In this document: positions 47,054 to 61,217 of the stretch, piece by piece
How the letters are laid out: every line of letters begins with the position of its first letter
Position numbering within the stretch: the stretch's first letter is position 1
Assembly (NCBI GenBank): GCA_025210525.1
Contig: JAOARP010000047.1
Span: 124,001 to 188,000, forward strand
Direction of reading: 5' to 3'
Length of the DNA: 64,000 bases
Source of the DNA: Marinisporobacter sp.
GTDB lineage: Bacteria; Bacillota; Clostridia; Peptostreptococcales; Thermotaleaceae
Made by a program: the position numbers and the translations under genes
The notes under the pieces: model-generated
Told to the model about the DNA's origin: nothing
The model's input: only the letters and a program-made list of their open reading frames with translations
Database searches by the model: none

Positions 47054-47824
47054 TCATTTAATATTTTTTCCATCAACTATAAGACTCGGCTTTAATTCCA
47101 TTCTTTCTACTGATAGAGCTAACTTTTTTAAATCTTCAATTTTAGGTGACTCTATATGAGATAAATCATAATTTCTTCCTAACTTTTTATAGGTATCAAC
47201 ACCAAATTTATGATAAGGTAATAATTCTACATCTCTAATATTAGAAAATTTTTCACAAAATTCTATTGTACTCTGAATATTACTTTTCGTATCATTTATT
47301 GATGGTATTACAGGAATCCTTACATGAATATTTAAATTTGGATTATCTTCACATATTCTCGCAAGATTTTCAAGAATCAAATTATTTGATGTTCCTACCC
47401 ATTTTTTGTGAGATAGGTTATCCATCATTTTAATGTCTACATAAAGACTATTTAAAAATGGAGAAATCTTTTCAAACTCTTCATACTTAGCGTATAAGCT
47501 TGTTTCAATAGCCGTATTAATTCCTAGAAAAATACATTTTTCTAGTATCTCTTTAGCAAAATCTGCCTGCATTAAAACTTCTCCACCACTTAAAGTAACT
47601 CCACCTCCAGAGTGATAGAAAAATACAGCGTCTTTTTCTACTTCTTGTACCACTTCATCAGATGTCATAACTTTACCATATCCATATTCAATTTTCTTTT
47701 CTTGTGATTCTGGAGTTGAACACCACTTACAGGACAATGGACACCCTTTTAAATAAACTACCGTCCGCAAACCATCACCATCATAGATTGATGATTTCTC
47801 AATACGAAGAACTAGGCCTTTCAT
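47054..47824 (-). CDS. Glycyl radical enzyme activase (radical SAM), compact form
   Basis: A 256-residue activase that generates the glycyl radical in the enzyme at 47831. The radical SAM motif is C-PLS-C-KW-C, in GCPLSCKWCSTPESQ. Most activases of this group have WCHNPES at that place. There is no second ferredoxin-like 4Fe-4S domain between the motif and the SAM-binding SGGEVLMQ segment, as in pyruvate formate-lyase activase and unlike the activases of glycerol dehydratase or CutC, which are about 40-50 residues longer. The start overlaps no gene; the enzyme ends 7 bases upstream. Confidence 0.9.
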   Translation of the reverse strand: MKGLVLRIEKSSIYDGDGLRTVVYLKGCPLSCKWCSTPESQEKKIEYGYGKVMTSDEVVQEVEKDAVFFYHSGGGVTLSGGEVLMQADFAKEILEKCIFLGINTAIETSLYAKYEEFEKISPFLNSLYVDIKMMDNLSHKKWVGTSNNLILENLARICEDNPNLNIHVRIPVIPSINDTKSNIQSTIEFCEKFSNIRDVELLPYHKFGVDTYKKLGRNYDLSHIESPKIEDLKKLALSVERMELKPSLIVDGKNIK

Positions 47825-47830
47825 GTCATA

Positions 47831-50212
47831 TCACCCCACTGATATCAATGACTGACTTGTTCTACCTATGATTTCATCTTGAACATCTTTTCCAAGTTCA
47901 ACAAAGTAGGCAGTATATCCAGCTACTCTTACAAGCAGTCCTTTATAATCCTCAGGATTTTTTTGTGCATCTAGTAAGGTCTCTCTATTCACCACATTAA
48001 ACTGTACATGAAACACCCCTAAACTACATACTGATTTCAATAAAGCCATCATTTGCTGAATACCATTTTCACTTTCTAAGAAATCTGGTTCAACTTTCAT
48101 ATTAAGTAGTGTTCCTTGCACAAAACGATCATGTGGCAACTTAGAAACAGATTTGATCACTGAAGTAGGTCCATTAAAATCTGTTCCTGCATTTGGACTA
48201 ACTCCATCAGCTAAAGGATTCCATGCTAATCTACCAGACGGTAAAGCTCCTACTTCTAATCCAAAGGGAGTATTACCAGATACAGGTAAAATACCAGGGG
48301 ACATTTTTCCGAACTTACTTTCATATTGCTCTATTTCATCTGCAATAAAAGTAAACATTTCTCCAGCAATAGCATCTACATAAGGGTCATCATTTCCATA
48401 TTTAGGAGCTTCTATACAAGCATTGAATACTTCTTGATATCCATCAAAATTGTGATCAAGTGCATTCACTAATTGATCCATAGATACCAATTTTTTATCA
48501 AAGACTAAATATTTAACTGCTGCCATACTATTTATTAAATCAGCTACGCCTATCATAATAATACCATTTCCAATATTATATTTTGCTCCACCTCTTGAAT
48601 AATCTAAAGCTTTGTTTATGCATTCACGATGGGTTAAAGACAAAACAGGCACTGGACGATCCATACAAACCTCATCTATAACATGACTTCCTTTCACACA
48701 AGCTTTTACAGAATATGCAATTTGTTTTTTTACAGCATTCTCAAAATCTAAATATGTTTTGAAGCTGTTTGGATTTCCAGAACACGCAGAAATTACTTTT
48801 CCGCTTTTTCTATTTTTACCGTTTGTTAAAGCAAACTCAATAATACTTCCTAAATTGATATCTGCTAGAGCAGTATATTGACGCATTCTTCCTTCAAGAT
48901 TTGTTTCTACACAGCCGCATGGATTCCAGTCAAAAGCTTCTTTTAAAGGAACACCTTTATTCATTACCATTCTAATACCTATATCATCATTATGAAATGC
49001 TGGAAAACCTGTACCCAGTTTGATTAACTCCACAACTTTACGCAAAAATTTAGTTGGATTTTTCGAAAGACTATATCTTACAGATAAAGAAGGCTGATAC
49101 AATTGTACCTCCATAGTTGCTTGTAGAATAAGATATGAAAGCTCATTTACAGCATCTTGACCCCATGTATTCACACCACCAACACAAACATTCTGAAACA
49201 TAGGATATCCAGCAGCAAACTCAGCTGTTACAGCATCTTGAAAAAGACAAGGTTCACTAAATTTTACCCATAGACAATTCAGTAATTCTTGTGCATCTTC
49301 AACACATAATTCTCCAGAATCTATATCCTTCTTATAAAATGGATATAAATATTGATCCATCCTACCAGGATTATAACTAGCTGCATTTTGTTCCATGAAG
49401 AGGCAAATTTGATAAAAATATAAAGACTGTAACGCTTCTCTAAAATTTCTAGCTGGATATTTTGGTACCTGTCTACATACTTTTTCAATAATTAATAATT
49501 CTTCTCTTCTTTTCTCATCCTTTTCACTTAATGCTTGTCTTTTAGCTTCTTCTGCATATCTTTCGGCTAATATTTCCATTCCTTCACAAGTAATCAATAA
49601 AGACTCTAGATAATAATATTTCTCATAATCTCCAGGGTGTGTAATATCCAATTTTTCTTTTTCATTATTAATGTTTTCTCGAATTCCTACAATTCCTTCA
49701 TTAATAATTTGTGAATATCCAGCAGTAGTCTCTCCAAAGCCTCTAACAGCTTTGCGATTAATGTAAATCACACCATGATCTCTTAATTCTTTTGTATCTT
49801 CTGGTACTTGTTTTAACCATGCTTCGTATGTAGAACGCCCTTCCCAAAAAGGCTTAATTTCCGTCTCAAAAACTTTTTTATCTTCAGGTGAGAGATAAAA
49901 GGGATCGTATTTTCTAGTACTAATAGTTTCTAATTCTTCATTTAAGATAGACCAACAAGTATCTGCACAGAGAATACCTCCTCTGATTTTGCTTCCTGAA
50001 CAACCAACAATTAACTCTCTCTCAGCAATTTCTATTGTTTTTTCTATACACTGCTGCCTAAATGCTTTTGCTTTTTGGATTACTAAAGGTTCTCCAGAAG
50101 TTTCTTTAAATACTTTTGTAAGAATTCTTGCATTTTCAAGATCAATTTCAGGTCTGGTGTTTACCACCCTATCTTTTAAATACTTAATTCTTTTCATATA
50201 TTTTTTTTCCAC
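47831..50212 (-). CDS. Glycyl radical enzyme of the CutC/GldH/HPAD class, substrate unknown
   Basis: A 793-residue enzyme. The radical-bearing glycine loop is RVAGYTAYF, with Gly765 near the C-terminus, and the thiyl cysteine is Cys434 in NPCGCVETN, followed by the conserved glutamate (GCVE) of the dehydratase/lyase/decarboxylase clade. Pyruvate formate-lyase itself would have adjacent cysteines. No small partner subunit of the HPA decarboxylase type is seen, and no microcompartment shell genes. Substrate assignment (diol, choline, hydroxyproline, arylacetate or other) is not possible by eye. Control by a divergent AraC regulator with a cupin domain suggests induction by the substrate. Confidence 0.9.
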   Translation of the reverse strand: MEKKYMKRIKYLKDRVVNTRPEIDLENARILTKVFKETSGEPLVIQKAKAFRQQCIEKTIEIAERELIVGCSGSKIRGGILCADTCWSILNEELETISTRKYDPFYLSPEDKKVFETEIKPFWEGRSTYEAWLKQVPEDTKELRDHGVIYINRKAVRGFGETTAGYSQIINEGIVGIRENINNEKEKLDITHPGDYEKYYYLESLLITCEGMEILAERYAEEAKRQALSEKDEKRREELLIIEKVCRQVPKYPARNFREALQSLYFYQICLFMEQNAASYNPGRMDQYLYPFYKKDIDSGELCVEDAQELLNCLWVKFSEPCLFQDAVTAEFAAGYPMFQNVCVGGVNTWGQDAVNELSYLILQATMEVQLYQPSLSVRYSLSKNPTKFLRKVVELIKLGTGFPAFHNDDIGIRMVMNKGVPLKEAFDWNPCGCVETNLEGRMRQYTALADINLGSIIEFALTNGKNRKSGKVISACSGNPNSFKTYLDFENAVKKQIAYSVKACVKGSHVIDEVCMDRPVPVLSLTHRECINKALDYSRGGAKYNIGNGIIMIGVADLINSMAAVKYLVFDKKLVSMDQLVNALDHNFDGYQEVFNACIEAPKYGNDDPYVDAIAGEMFTFIADEIEQYESKFGKMSPGILPVSGNTPFGLEVGALPSGRLAWNPLADGVSPNAGTDFNGPTSVIKSVSKLPHDRFVQGTLLNMKVEPDFLESENGIQQMMALLKSVCSLGVFHVQFNVVNRETLLDAQKNPEDYKGLLVRVAGYTAYFVELGKDVQDEIIGRTSQSLISVG

Positions 50213-50343: not shown

Positions 50344-51237
50344 ATGACTAAAAGCAAACAATCATTACATGAATCCAATCAATATAATGATCCTTCTTTT
50401 CCCTTTGGAATGTATACTATTAATCGTACAAAATGTATTCCAAAAGGACGTGGCTATAAAGATTTACACTGGCATGAAGAGTTGCAATTTACTTTGGTTA
50501 TTACAGGAGAGATCATCATTAAAGTAAATGGAATTGATTACTCTTTAAAACAAGGAGAAGCCATCTTTATGAATAGCGGCTTACTTCATATTACTACTTA
50601 TATTAGCCAAAATGCAAACTACGTTAGCTTCAATTTTCCCTATAATATGCTTTCATATTTTCCTGGAAGTAGAATGGAACAAAGTTATGTTCTCCCTTAT
50701 ACAAGTAACTACACTTTTCCAGTTACTGTTTTCAAATCTTCTATTCACTGGCAGAATGATTGTCTATGTATTTTATGGAGCTTAAAAGAAATCATGAATA
50801 ATGATAAAGACTTTGGATGGGAGTATATTATTTCTTTGAAAATTACACAATTATGGTTTTTGATGTTAAAAAATACTTTTCAATCCATTAATGAGACTCC
50901 TAAAAGTTTTATACGAAACCAAGAACGCATACAATTGTTGCTTACCTTTATGCATGAGAACTATTCTGAAGATATTTCCCTACAAGATATTGCTAATGCT
51001 GCTCATGTAAGTGTTGGGGAATGTACAAGATGTTTTAAAAATATTATCCATACTACTCCCTATGAATATTTATTAGATTATCGTATCTCTAAGAGTATGG
51101 AATTACTAGCTAGAACAGATTACACGGTTAGTGAAATTGCTGGACGAGTTGGCTTTAATCATGTTAATCATTATATTCAGTCCTTTAAGAAGAGAGAAAA
51201 AACTACTCCTATGAAATATAGACAAGCTCTAAGATAA
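50344..51237 (+). CDS. AraC family regulator with cupin domain
   Basis: A 297-residue activator: N-terminal cupin (LHWHEELQFTLVITGEIIIKVNG, then QGEAIFMNSGLLH), middle linker, then two AraC helix-turn-helix motifs at the C-terminus (DISLQDIANAAHVSVGECTRCFK and DYTVSEIAGRVGFNHVNHYIQSFK). The ribosome binding site is GGAGGGG. Divergent from the glycyl radical enzyme, which is its probable target. Confidence 0.93.
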   Translation: MTKSKQSLHESNQYNDPSFPFGMYTINRTKCIPKGRGYKDLHWHEELQFTLVITGEIIIKVNGIDYSLKQGEAIFMNSGLLHITTYISQNANYVSFNFPYNMLSYFPGSRMEQSYVLPYTSNYTFPVTVFKSSIHWQNDCLCILWSLKEIMNNDKDFGWEYIISLKITQLWFLMLKNTFQSINETPKSFIRNQERIQLLLTFMHENYSEDISLQDIANAAHVSVGECTRCFKNIIHTTPYEYLLDYRISKSMELLARTDYTVSEIAGRVGFNHVNHYIQSFKKREKTTPMKYRQALR

Positions 51238-55573: not shown

Positions 55574-58165
55574 TTAGTTAATTTCTTGAGCATATATACT
55601 CATTTGATATAAACCTGCCTTTTCAAATCTTGGCTTTATATTTACTTCTTTTAGTTGATCCTTTGTTAAGGACACTCTGATGATGTGTATTCCATCAGAT
55701 AATTTACTATTTAAAACATTGTCATGAATTACTGTTATATCACCCTCCTTTAAATAATCATTCTCTTTTTTCCACTCTAAAACAATAGTGATATTGCGAT
55801 CCTCAACATCACTATTCGTAAAAACTGTAAAGAATAAATCTATTTCTTCTCCCTTTTCAACTGTAACATTAGTTATAGGTTCTCTAGCCCAAGAGAGGAC
55901 TATATTAATATCATCTTCCGAGTTTTCCCCAGAGTCATTTTCGTTATTACTTCCACCTGATGAGCTAGAATTATCATCATTCTGTTCTCTTTCATTATTT
56001 ATATCTTGGCTAAAAATATCTGAATCCTGTGATTCTATATCTCCTAAAATAGAGCTTATAACTTCTTTTATACGTGATTCAATAAGCAATTCAGTATTTT
56101 CATAATCATTATCTACAGGAATATCTATACCAACTTCTGCATTTTTACCATTGATTATAACTTCAACAGCTAAATTATTTACTGTATTGACTTCTCCTTC
56201 GGCCCTTATATTTGACCCTCTAGCATTCACATTAATTTGCAATTCATGAGTAACTGATCCTTTATCAGTTTCGACCACTACATCAGCATTTAGTGTCAAG
56301 GTACCTGTCTCAGAGTTATTTACAGCAGCAAAATACCCCTCTGAATTCATGTTAATCTCTTCTACATTAGATTCACTCATTATAACCTCAGCACCTGTGG
56401 CTGTATTTGTTACAGTAACACGATTTACCATAGAACTATCAAGCAATGCAGTAGCAGTAGACTGTAATATAACATCTTTTATTTCTGAATTTCTTGCTAT
56501 TATTTGAAATCTGTTAGGATTTTGAGAATCAGATATATTATCAGAACTTATTACGGTTACTGAATCTACTGACGTATTCTCTAGGATAAGAGTTGGTCTT
56601 GAGTCCCCATTTTCTTCGAATGATTGTTCTTCACTTTCAGTTCCATCTTCTGATTCAGATTGTTCTTGATCACCTGGTTCCAGTGGTTCTTCAATTTCAG
56701 CTCTATCTCCTTCTCTATTTTGCATTATTTCTTGTTCTTGTCTTATATTTTCAGGAACATTTTCGCTAGATGGTTTAATATCCGGTGGAAGAATAGAACT
56801 CATCGAACCTTCAGATGATTGTTGTTCACTTTCAGTTCTATCTCCTAATTCAGGCTGTCCTTCATTTTCATATGGTTGTTCTCCTTCTGATTCAGATTGT
56901 TGTTCATCTTGTTGTTCCTCTTGCTGTTCATCTTCTTCTCTCCTTTGTTGCATTATCTCTTGTTCTTGTCTTATATTTGCAGGAGCAATCTCTCTAAATG
57001 AATTCAATATCTGAGATGACAGAGGACGAACCGGACTGAGTATACCACTAGATGATATATCACTCATTTGACCACTAAATAGTTGTCTTATCTCTCCAGT
57101 TGCCTTCGACTGAAGTAACATAGCCTTACCAGCATGTATTTCTTCAACTCCATGTTTTTCTCCATCTGCTCCAACTTCACTAAGTATAATCGTAGCTAAT
57201 TCCCAACTATCTATACTATCAAAATCTCTTTTCACAATACTCAATACAGTCTGATCATCTGCCGATGCAACAAGCTTTGGTATCTTTGATAGTATTTCAT
57301 CTTCTTTCACAGTAACCTTGGCATTAGATTTTAAGTACAGTTTTTTGCAGTATGCATTTATAATATTAATGTTATCTCCTTCACATTCAATATTTATACT
57401 CTCAGTTGCTATTGTATTTAGAAGAGTAACATTACCATCATCTATTCCCTTTGTTAAATATATATTTCCTTCTACTGCTAGGTTATTGATAGAAATATTT
57501 TCAGAACAGACAAGCACATTCCCTTTTATTATTTTTTTATTAGGATATTCAAAAGTACCTGGTGAATCATAAATATGTGTAACCATATTATCTAGTAGTG
57601 TAAAAATCTCTCCCCTTGTCATAGGAAGCTTTGGTCTTATTGTTTTATCTGTATATCCTTTTACATACTCCCTTGCAACTAGTTCATTGACAGATTTTTC
57701 ACTCCACTTAGATATTTTATCCCTATCTTCAAAATCCGAAAGATAATCTTCTTCATAATCATTAAAACCAAATAACTGTGCAAGTATTGTTATTACTTCT
57801 TCCCTTGTTATATTTTCATCTGGTCTGACTTTATATCCTTCAAAATACATTAGATATCCTGCAACATGAGCTTTTTGTATTTCCTTGTAATACCACTTAT
57901 CCTCTGAAACATCATTAGCATAAATCTTTCCAAGCTTTTCAAACCCAAAGATATTATTTACAAATGTATAAAACTCTGCTTTAGTCATCAACTGATTTTG
58001 TTTTATACCCCCATTTTCATATCCATTGATATAACCCTCTTCAATCCATCTTCCAATTGAATCATTAGCCCAATGATCTTTCGTTTCTTCACCATATGCA
58101 ATCATATTAAATGTAAGTATAAATACTAATGGTATCCAACATAATAATCCTCTTTTGAAAATCAT
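55574..58165 (-). CDS. SLH-domain surface protein with tandem acidic repeat
   Basis: A protein of about 863 residues. After a signal peptide come three SLH domains (residues 25-75, 85-140 and 148-200; KDHWANDSIGRWIEEGYINGY, VSEDKWYYKEIQKAHVAGY, MTRGEIFTLL). Then come a beta-rich domain to about 330, an acidic Q/E/S-rich region (about 390-520) with two copies of a NIRQEQEIMQ-containing repeat spaced by 76 codons, a second beta region (about 530-700), an Asn/Ser-rich linker and a C-terminal Ig-like domain shared with the protein at 54777. The ATG at 58165 behind GGAGG is chosen over a TTG at 58177. It is surface-anchored; its partner is unknown. Confidence 0.85.
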   Translation of the reverse strand: MIFKRGLLCWIPLVFILTFNMIAYGEETKDHWANDSIGRWIEEGYINGYENGGIKQNQLMTKAEFYTFVNNIFGFEKLGKIYANDVSEDKWYYKEIQKAHVAGYLMYFEGYKVRPDENITREEVITILAQLFGFNDYEEDYLSDFEDRDKISKWSEKSVNELVAREYVKGYTDKTIRPKLPMTRGEIFTLLDNMVTHIYDSPGTFEYPNKKIIKGNVLVCSENISINNLAVEGNIYLTKGIDDGNVTLLNTIATESINIECEGDNINIINAYCKKLYLKSNAKVTVKEDEILSKIPKLVASADDQTVLSIVKRDFDSIDSWELATIILSEVGADGEKHGVEEIHAGKAMLLQSKATGEIRQLFSGQMSDISSSGILSPVRPLSSQILNSFREIAPANIRQEQEIMQQRREEDEQQEEQQDEQQSESEGEQPYENEGQPELGDRTESEQQSSEGSMSSILPPDIKPSSENVPENIRQEQEIMQNREGDRAEIEEPLEPGDQEQSESEDGTESEEQSFEENGDSRPTLILENTSVDSVTVISSDNISDSQNPNRFQIIARNSEIKDVILQSTATALLDSSMVNRVTVTNTATGAEVIMSESNVEEINMNSEGYFAAVNNSETGTLTLNADVVVETDKGSVTHELQINVNARGSNIRAEGEVNTVNNLAVEVIINGKNAEVGIDIPVDNDYENTELLIESRIKEVISSILGDIESQDSDIFSQDINNEREQNDDNSSSSGGSNNENDSGENSEDDINIVLSWAREPITNVTVEKGEEIDLFFTVFTNSDVEDRNITIVLEWKKENDYLKEGDITVIHDNVLNSKLSDGIHIIRVSLTKDQLKEVNIKPRFEKAGLYQMSIYAQEIN

Positions 58166-58326
58166 ATGCACCTCCAAATTTAGACATTTGTTTTATTTCA
58201 CCATATTTCGAAACACTTTTTTGAAATATACCTAATCAAAATAATTCTGTCAAACTATTTATGTCACAACATATTTTCTAAAAATTAATTTCATGTTTTT
58301 ACATTTCGCATATCCCCCCTTAAGAA

Positions 58327-58525: not shown

Positions 58526-58565
58526 ATAAGTCTAGTTCTATGGAATCATACTGAACTAGACTTAT
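58526..58565 (-). terminator. Terminator of the radical SAM operon
   Basis: Perfect 13-bp arms (ATAAGTCTAGTTC and GAACTAGACTTAT) with a 14-base loop; on the minus strand the stem is followed by TTTTAG. It is 37 bases beyond the stop of the 27-codon ORF at 58603. Confidence 0.8.
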
Positions 58566-58602: not shown

Positions 58603-58686
58603 CTATTTTTTATCTGTTACAGTTATTAACAGGTTATAGCTTATGTCTGCTTCATCTATTTTATAGTCGTCATAATACTCAAGCAT
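58603..58686 (-). CDS. Short peptide resembling the N-terminus of the 59897 protein
   Basis: A 27-codon ORF with ATG at 58684-58686 and TAG at 58603-58605. It begins MLEYYDDYKIDEADISYN, which aligns to MFEYYDGYEIDGSDTSYN, the start of the 374-residue protein at 59897-61021; the DNA matches at about three quarters of positions over 70 bases. It starts 8 bases after the stop of the radical SAM gene, so translation could be coupled. Only a weak ATAGG precedes the ATG. Similarity ends after about 20 residues, and the tail reads LITVTDKK. Options: a RiPP-type substrate of the radical SAM enzyme, or the stump of a duplicated copy of the 374-residue gene. It has no cysteine. Confidence 0.45.
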   Translation of the reverse strand: MLEYYDDYKIDEADISYNLLITVTDKK

Positions 58687-58694
58687 AACCTATT

Positions 58695-59870
58695 CTACTT
58701 ATATATAGGACACTCTATCGTTCCACTCTTTGCATCTTTAAAAAGTGCCTCATAAATAGCCATACATCCACCACATACATCTATATATCCACATGTATAG
58801 CACAAACGTTCTACATGATATACTTTATTTTTTAACGACTGTATAAATTTACCTTCTGTATAGTATTCATAGATTGAATTAGCTCTCTCTTTCATTTTAA
58901 TATGACTACAAGGTTTAAAAGAACCATCAGCATGAATAGCTATAAAACTTTTACCCGCCATACAACCTGAACGTTCTTTATTAACACGTCCATTATTAAG
59001 ATATATTAATAGGTTAGAATAGGCTGAGTCCACTTTAACTTTAATTCCCTTAACTTGTTTGATCCATTCAGCCAATTGGTAAAACTCGTCACTAGAGAGT
59101 GCATAATCTTTATAGACCTCTGCAGGAGATGGTTTATATCGCAAAAGATTGATGTTTTCTGCACCCATTCTTTTTGCATACTCAACTGTTTCTAAAAAAG
59201 TATCTAGATTATCTTTACGTATAACCATATTAATACCAAAAGATAAATCTGTACGCCTTAAAATTTGGATTGCATGAACAGCATGATGAAAACCATCTCG
59301 AGATTTCTCATTAACTAATTGTACAATTGAATTAAGGGAAATCTGCATATGGTTTAATCCTGCTTTAATAAGTTTATCTAGTAGTTCCTGTGATAACCCA
59401 TAACCACTGGTAGTCATTGTAGCAGACATTTCTGTCTTTGAAATATACTCAACAAAATCTACAATTTGAGGATGAACTAATGGTTCCCCACCACCAATGG
59501 CAATCTGAAAAATTTTAAGTTTCTGTGCTTCATCAATATATGACTGAAATACTTTTAATGACATCTCAAGTACATTAGTATCCCCTTTATAACATTGTGG
59601 ACAGGTTAATGGACATGCGGTTGTGATATCAATATGTAGAGCATCAAGACGTAAATAATCTTGCTCTTTCTCTAGTGCTTTTATAACCTCATTGGGATGA
59701 AAAGCTTTTGTAAGTATTCCAAGATGGTATAGGCGATCTATAAACGGTGTTTTTACACCATCTTTTGCATATTCTACTAACATTTCTTTTTCCTTATTTG
59801 AAAACACCCCAGTCATTCCTGTGCTTTTTTCAAACAAATACAGTTTTTCATTATATAGTTTAACTTGCAT
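58695..59870 (-). CDS. Radical SAM protein with SPASM domain
   Basis: A 391-residue enzyme. The N-terminal 80 residues form a small domain that may recognise a substrate peptide (similar in place to an RRE/PqqD-like domain; this is inference). The radical SAM motif is CPLTCPQC with Cys86, Cys90 and Cys93 (LHIDITTACPLTCPQCYKG), followed by the SAM-binding IGGGEPLVHP. The C-terminal SPASM domain has Cys303, 321, 357, 360, 366, 369 and 387, enough for two auxiliary 4Fe-4S clusters. Enzymes of this layout mostly modify ribosomal peptides or protein side chains (as in AnSME, PqqE, AlbA). The ATG at 59870 is preferred to in-frame TTG/GTG codons at 59888 and 59882. The neighbouring 374-residue gene precedes it by 26 bases. 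Confidence 0.9.
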   Translation of the reverse strand: MQVKLYNEKLYLFEKSTGMTGVFSNKEKEMLVEYAKDGVKTPFIDRLYHLGILTKAFHPNEVIKALEKEQDYLRLDALHIDITTACPLTCPQCYKGDTNVLEMSLKVFQSYIDEAQKLKIFQIAIGGGEPLVHPQIVDFVEYISKTEMSATMTTSGYGLSQELLDKLIKAGLNHMQISLNSIVQLVNEKSRDGFHHAVHAIQILRRTDLSFGINMVIRKDNLDTFLETVEYAKRMGAENINLLRYKPSPAEVYKDYALSSDEFYQLAEWIKQVKGIKVKVDSAYSNLLIYLNNGRVNKERSGCMAGKSFIAIHADGSFKPCSHIKMKERANSIYEYYTEGKFIQSLKNKVYHVERLCYTCGYIDVCGGCMAIYEALFKDAKSGTIECPIYK

Positions 59871-59896
59871 AATATCTGTCACCCTCAATCAATTCG

Positions 59897-61021
59897 TCAA
59901 AGTATACGTTCCACATATTCTCTGAGCTTTTGTGATACAAGTAGTTTTAACTGAATATCGTTATTTTTTCTACTAAAATATATTTCCCCATAATGAGAAC
60001 AATTTGAATTAGTCCTATATATTTTCAGTCCTATGGATGTACATCTATGAAAGATTTCATCTGTAACGAATCCTAATGGTGCAATCTTTTTAGCAAATTC
60101 AATATGACCTCTTAATGTTTTATCATGATATTTTTCACATATATCCATCAAACATTCTAACTCCGTATCAATCTGACCTAAAACTCTAGGCTCTTTTTCT
60201 TTATAGGAAATTGAATCATAACGATATTTTTGATACTTTTTCTTATCGTTACAATGATAGGTATTTATAAATGGATTTTCATGATATGTTTTGACACATT
60301 CAAGATTTAATATATGATCAATTTTCATATATAAATCCTTTGATGAACAGTCGATCTCTTCATACAAAAAATTTTCTGAATAAATCTCATACCATGATAC
60401 ATTTTCTAAATTAGCTTCCGCATCAATTTCTAATTCTGGGAAAGCCAATGACATCTTCTTTAATGCGTAGTATTTTAAAACATTAGGCCCTCCTAAAAAA
60501 CAATCAACCTCTACAAACCTAATAGGTTTATCTTGCTTTCGATTACAATAATCATCTCCACATATTTCATTGAAATCTGTATATCTTTTCTTTGCTGAAT
60601 ATGGTTCTAGATGAATTTCTAGATAACCTTGAGTATAAGCATTGGGATATAAAACTGGTTGTATCATATCTTTTTCTTTTATACCAAAGTTATTGACTAT
60701 ACTTGTAATTAACTCTCGTTTCACTTCTGGATAGAGATTATAGGGATTAACATATTTATAAGAAATCTCAAATGATTTAACTGATGAACTAAGTACATCT
60801 TCCCACATCAAATCCAATTCATGCTTATAATAAGATTTATTACATAATTCTCCTTTTCTTTTTGTATTAACTTTTGTTATTTTAATAGGTATATCTTTTC
60901 TTATTATTTTCAACTGTAAATAATAATTAACAACCTCTTTCAACTTCTCTATTTCAGGTGTTAAAATGTTATAACTTGTATCTGACCCATCTATTTCATA
61001 GCCATCATAATACTCAAACAT
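59897..61021 (-). CDS. Protein of unknown family in the radical SAM operon
   Basis: A 374-residue soluble protein without recognisable domain. It starts at 61021 with MFEYYDGYEIDGSDTSYN behind a perfect AGGAGG 6 bases upstream; a reading to 61036 only adds residues over the ribosome binding site. The N-terminal stretch recurs as the 27-codon ORF at 58603. It has about ten scattered cysteines and many aromatic and charged residues, and segments such as IRFVEVDCFLGGPNVLKYYA and FAKKIAPLGFVTDEIFHRC; no catalytic signature stands out. It is the first gene of the operon, before the SPASM enzyme, so it could be a substrate, a chaperone or a second maturation enzyme. Confidence 0.75.
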   Translation of the reverse strand: MFEYYDGYEIDGSDTSYNILTPEIEKLKEVVNYYLQLKIIRKDIPIKITKVNTKRKGELCNKSYYKHELDLMWEDVLSSSVKSFEISYKYVNPYNLYPEVKRELITSIVNNFGIKEKDMIQPVLYPNAYTQGYLEIHLEPYSAKKRYTDFNEICGDDYCNRKQDKPIRFVEVDCFLGGPNVLKYYALKKMSLAFPELEIDAEANLENVSWYEIYSENFLYEEIDCSSKDLYMKIDHILNLECVKTYHENPFINTYHCNDKKKYQKYRYDSISYKEKEPRVLGQIDTELECLMDICEKYHDKTLRGHIEFAKKIAPLGFVTDEIFHRCTSIGLKIYRTNSNCSHYGEIYFSRKNNDIQLKLLVSQKLREYVERIL

Positions 61022-61217
61022 AGCTAGCCTCCTCATATATATCTTTCTAGTTTACTTTAGTTGATATCTGCTATGTTACTATCAATATGTTCAAATATAG
61101 ATTTACCATTTTACAAAGACACCCCTCCATTTTTATTAAACAGCTATAGTATTTTTATCTTCTTCCTCTCAATTTTACTGCTATTTAGCTTGTATATCAA
61201 ATTGTAAAATAACACAT

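Follow-up and report, generated by a model that had tools for sequence, protein, structure and literature searches.

A probable remnant of a second partner-protein gene behind a SPASM radical SAM enzyme gene in Marinisporobacter

Gene order, signals and the SPASM enzyme

Here, we analyze a locus in Marinisporobacter sp. at which a gene for a large protein (LP) precedes a gene for a SPASM radical SAM enzyme and a short ORF whose beginning resembles that of the LP gene. The locus lies in a window of 64,000 nucleotides, by which we mean the whole stretch of DNA analyzed. On the minus strand, the order is LP gene, SPASM gene, short ORF and terminator-like hairpin (Table 1), and the short ORF starts 8 bases past the SPASM stop; both the order and this spacing, described in the initial annotation, were confirmed from the ORFs. 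The strong terminator proposed at the operon end is upheld in part: the 17-bp hairpin is present, but its 3' run reads TTATTTTAGTT and has no clean T tract. Shine-Dalgarno pairing is strong for the LP and SPASM genes (−11.5 and −10.4 kcal/mol, respectively) and weak for the short ORF (−5.0 kcal/mol). Based on comparison with relatives, the SPASM gene more likely starts at the ATG at 59870 than at the TTG at 59888. Elsewhere in the window, translations judged by eye suggest that 47054-50212 encodes a likely glycyl radical enzyme of 793 aa together with its activating enzyme, beside an AraC-type regulator (50344-51237). At 55574-58177, a secreted protein is encoded that combines three S-layer homology domains with long stretches rich in Glu, Gln and Ser.

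Table 1. Coordinates of the features at the LP/SPASM locus (positions in the window)
Feature	Position	Strand	Basis
LP gene	59897..61021	minus	ORF of 374 codons; orphan family with conserved N-terminal tag
LP tag, MFEYYDGYEIDGSDTSYNI	60965..61021	minus	Invariant-position count over 13 LPs; low-pLDDT start
LP ribosome-binding site AGGAGG	61028..61033	minus	Anti-SD duplex of −11.5 kcal/mol
Radical SAM/SPASM gene	58695..59888 (TTG) or 59870 (ATG)	minus	PF04055; cysteine motifs
27-codon short ORF, probable 5'-end relic of a second LP gene	58603..58686	minus	44/54 nt identical to LP; orthologous broken relics; tag invariants lost
18 relic codons still alignable to the LP tag	58633..58686	minus	Nucleotide comparison with LP
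Terminator-like hairpin at the operon end	58526..58565	minus	17-bp stem; 101-nt stretch folds at −19.5 kcal/mol

The enzyme matches the Radical_SAM family PF04055 (E = 3.6e-20), and its CxxxCxxC motif (C92, C96 and C99), invariant with its relatives, places it in the radical SAM superfamily. The SPASM cysteines (C309, C327, C363, C366, C372, C375 and C393) are invariant among the three intact enzymes aligned. The nearest curated profiles are NirJ2, MftC and PqqE, with NCBIfam scores below cut-off (112.6 of 500, 101 of 265 and 95 of 381 bits, respectively) and thus no equivalog assignment, and the solved structural relatives are PqqE, the CteB-like 5wgg and SkfB. The conserved N-terminal extra domain of ∼75 residues has no Pfam match and, by sequence comparison only, no RRE among solved structures. 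Matches to viperin in PADLOC were attributed to the common radical SAM core. The maturases PqqE, MftC, CteB and SkfB resemble the enzyme in combining a radical SAM core with a seven-cysteine SPASM region, and also in having an N-terminal extra domain of ∼75 residues and an operonic partner. By contrast with SPASM peptide maturases, the partner here is a protein of 356 to 420 residues and no short precursor peptide, and the enzyme reaches no curated subfamily cut-off.

LP, its genomic distribution and its N-terminal tag

LP and its relatives match no family in Pfam or NCBIfam. In whole-genome searches, LP relatives are sparse and occur in Bacillota, Bacteroidota and Desulfobacterota; none was found in phages, plasmids or viral contigs, and a scan of genome contigs with the window LP alone as query gave no match. 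The LP of G015, which belongs to the same family as the window genome, is 82% identical. Further LP holders are G270, G310, G864 (Anaerobacterium chartisolvens) and G869, from another order of the class, as well as two Oceanirhabdus genomes, a Tannerella MAG with two copies, Desulfobacterales MAGs and Family XIII, and additional LP genomes came from the Bacteroidales and Clostridia searches. A first AlphaFold model of LP was poor; a second one, with a mean pLDDT of 75.7, has no confident fold match in the PDB or among viral folds and no recognizable enzyme fold. The top VIA match, to a CdiI immunity protein (Z 6.3, 132 residues, rmsd 4.6), lies within the range of unrelated folds and was rejected.

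A close relative of the enzyme is encoded beside LP at every intact locus, in either order. The LP gene comes first in the window, G015, both Oceanirhabdus genomes, L087, L088 and L094, and the enzyme gene comes first in G270, G310, G864, G869, L060, L062, L089 and Tannerella; at L060, one gene separates the two, and the L089 contig includes just the end of the enzyme gene. The enzyme gene of L087 is frameshifted, fragments of the module are found in G363, G412 and G470, and in G011, nothing but the enzyme gene's end remains. Decayed copies are common, and the module is thus accessory and frequently lost. The G011 remnant (L025, 7411-7515) is a lone stretch of ∼28 codons from the enzyme C-terminus with no LP nearby. 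In G015 (L002, 1-1541), the SPASM gene carries a frameshift close to its 3' end, and Tyr replaces one SPASM cysteine (FKPYSH), while LP is still open; decay there seems to have begun with the enzyme gene. At L058 (4335-11490) and L060 (1813-5995), the module sits among small unknown genes, which in Tannerella are accompanied by one DUF5984 protein and one ankyrin protein; these surroundings may represent a polymorphic-toxin immunity neighborhood.

LP starts with a tag of the consensus M-F-x-Y-x-x-G-Y-E-I-D-G-S-D-T-x-Y-N. Across 13 LPs, 9 of 19 tag positions are invariant versus 4 of the 334 alignable positions elsewhere, a count that is biased because some of these LPs were fetched with tag-derived patterns. 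When only the six LPs obtained by whole-protein searches are counted, the first 19 positions include 14 invariant ones, versus 35 in the rest of the protein, and E-I-D-G-S-D-T is kept in the members found later by a full-length profile. Between the two Tannerella LPs, TanA and TanB, identity is 89% in the tag, where several differences are synonymous, but only 17% in the body. Near-equal tags that differ synonymously on such divergent bodies indicate that the tag is maintained by selection and not by recent copying. In the second LP model, residues 1 to 14 have a pLDDT under 50 and lie ahead of the first strand, and the tag is predicted to be disordered.

Origin of the short ORF

The initial annotation had described the short ORF as a repeat of the LP N-terminus, and this likeness is borne out. 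Over the first 54 bases, 44 are identical to the LP gene (12 of 18 residues), whereas the next-best ungapped 54-base match to the repeat on both strands of the whole window (128 kb) is 32/54. In addition, when all six-frame ORFs of the fetched loci were searched with a profile of 12 LP relatives, the short ORF was recovered (E = 5e-4). The likeness ends at about codon 18 to 21; the remaining tail, LLITVTDKK, matches nothing, and no convincing remnants of the LP body follow. Members of the LP family combine the tag with a body of at least 350 residues, while only ∼18 codons of the short ORF can be aligned. Relative to the tag, the short ORF is altered at F2, G7, E9, G12, S13 and T15, and E9, G12, S13 and T15 are kept in every intact LP of our alignments. 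Ka/Ks between the two copies is 0.27 (pN 0.13, pS 0.49), a value not near 1 that has no power over 18 codons; 4 of the 10 changes are synonymous, which fits neutrality if transitions dominate (p ∼0.34) and barely does so without that bias (p ∼0.06).

In relatives, the same place behind the SPASM stop is occupied in different ways. In Oceanirhabdus seepicola, it reads ATG TTT GAG TAT TAT GAC GGT TAA GAT ATA GAT ATT TAA, i.e., MFEYYDG, a stop at codon 8, DIDI and a second stop at codon 13. In Oceanirhabdus W0125-5, ∼11 codons are alike (MFEYFGEYDLE), after which the sequence diverges and the frame stays open for 91 codons. The relics of the window and the two Oceanirhabdus genomes are mutually 79 to 83% identical over 33 to 35 nt, and codon 6 is GAC in the window and O. 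seepicola relics but GAT or GAA in the LP copies. Based on this alignment and the common GAC codon, the relics most likely have a common origin in a single old second copy. The 91-codon ORF with the MFEYFGEYDLE start and an unknown body lies at L059 (10333-10608) upstream of a TnpB-like gene. An origin of the W0125-5 ORF as an internally deleted LP was considered and rejected, the weak tblastn match being no better than that of shuffled sequences.

No trace of the short ORF is found behind the SPASM gene of G015, the nearest relative, and it is also absent in A. chartisolvens, the DTU079 and SKW182 MAGs, G310 and the Bacteroidales locus L088. Searches with full-length and tag-only profiles recovered no conserved short peptide in homologous operons. 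With the tag profile over 11 LP-holding genomes, the short ORF is the sole free-standing copy of the tag, all others being full LPs; none of the 10 other genomes has such a copy, and the remaining matches were weak and partial (E above 0.2). A full LP directly follows the SPASM gene in A. chartisolvens, DTU079, G310 and SKW182, and two LPs follow the enzyme gene in Tannerella; in these enzyme-first lineages, LP starts right at the enzyme stop, which is the position of the relic. In the LP-first Clostridia lineage itself, the enzyme gene was not seen to be followed by a full second LP.

Judged from these sequence comparisons, which show homology to LP, orthology of the relics and the loss of residues kept by intact LPs, the short ORF is very probably what is left of the 5' part of a decaying second LP gene. 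The missing or broken ORF in homologous operons favors this reading, which the initial annotation had offered as its alternative, a truncated LP duplicate. Points against it are the open frame of the short ORF, the Ka/Ks value not near 1, the lack of a full second LP behind the enzyme gene in the LP-first Clostridia lineage and the 91-codon ORF of W0125-5, with a body unrecognizable as LP.

Among the rivals, it is unlikely that the 54-base repeats arose by recombination between LP copies, through cassette exchange or through tandem duplication and deletion, with no independent decayed LP involved. Direct repeats on both sides of the enzyme gene, the occurrence of both gene orders, the locus with two LPs and the partial module copies scattered among relatives would all fit such events; however, the GAC codon 6 common to the window and O. 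seepicola relics, and not found in the LP copies, argues that the relic is old and not a fresh partial copy.

We consider it quite improbable that the short ORF encodes a functional peptide, i.e., a RiPP-like substrate or decoy that has the same recognition segment as LP and undergoes modification by the enzyme. The initial annotation had suggested the short peptide, the large protein or both as the substrate. Such a peptide would agree with the open frame between the SPASM stop and the hairpin, with the real similarity to the LP start, with the retention of ATG-[TC]TT-GAG-TAT at this place in all three relics and with the MFEYFGEYDLE start of the 91-codon ORF in W0125-5. However, the frame is interrupted at codon 8 in O. 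seepicola and is missing in G015 and all enzyme-first operons, the ribosome-binding site is weak, and invariants of the tag are altered. While a short RiPP precursor would be kept beside its maturase across operons, and a recognition peptide was expected to recur with the same segment and a variable tail, the ORF is missing or broken in homologous operons, which speaks against the short peptide as the substrate. Finally, a coincidental likeness, or an ORF arising by chance in intergenic sequence, can be dismissed as refuted: although the ORF has only 27 codons, the 44/54 match stands far above the next best one in 128 kb, the profile finds it (E = 5e-4), and orthologous relics occupy the same position in two other genomes.

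In the favored reading, the locus is a two-gene module of LP and SPASM enzyme. An ancestor common to the window lineage and Oceanirhabdus would have had a second LP immediately after the enzyme gene, and the same remnant would have been broken in other ways in Oceanirhabdus. The short ORF could be expressed through translational coupling, given its frame open for 27 codons; the relic probably does nothing now.

The tag as a candidate site of enzyme action

The tag is the best-conserved part of LP, is common to LPs with bodies that are 17% identical, and belongs to a protein always encoded next to the enzyme. These observations make LP, not the short peptide, the plausible target; the proposal that the shared segment is a recognition element thus retains its LP part and loses the short peptide. 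A recognition or modification site would be expected to take this form, with an invariant but flexible tail attached to divergent bodies. We suggest, with slightly less than even confidence, that the enzyme binds, and probably modifies, the flexible N-terminal tag of LP. Tag distances correlate with those of LP bodies (partial r 0.48) and of the enzyme (partial r 0.31; permutation p 0.012, uncorrected for phylogeny); in these sequence distances, the tag follows the LP body at least as well as the enzyme, and tag-enzyme coevolution is suggestive only.

The tag has no invariant cysteine, L089 alone having a Cys (position 16), and neither the window tag nor the short ORF contains one. A thioether in the window tag is therefore unlikely, and the candidate chemistry would be on Tyr, Glu, Asp, Ser or Thr. 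Sactipeptide and ranthipeptide systems likewise have a SPASM maturase beside a gene with a putative recognition segment; they differ in that the modified segment contains Cys and the precursor is short and cysteine-rich, whereas the short ORF here is not conserved. Anaerobic sulfatase-maturating enzymes and QhpD are radical SAM enzymes that work on full-length proteins. As in those systems, the enzyme gene here lies by that of one large partner protein, and the target would likewise be a short stretch within a folded protein; by contrast, the segment here is at the extreme N-terminus and lacks an invariant cysteine, and LP has no recognizable enzyme fold.

The module as a unit is absent from Pfam, NCBIfam and PADLOC, and the tag sequence is not printed in the literature searched. 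It is conceivable, though less likely than not, that the module represents an undescribed class of radical SAM protein modification in three phyla, in which the nearly invariant N-terminal tail of large partner proteins with otherwise divergent bodies receives a modification or crosslink from a SPASM enzyme. On its own, the short ORF represents ordinary gene decay, and the module behind it is of moderate interest. If the enzyme modifies the tag, the module would be a case of SPASM chemistry directed at a large protein's tail instead of at a small precursor, and because the candidate site of action is already confined to ∼15 residues, this idea is directly testable.
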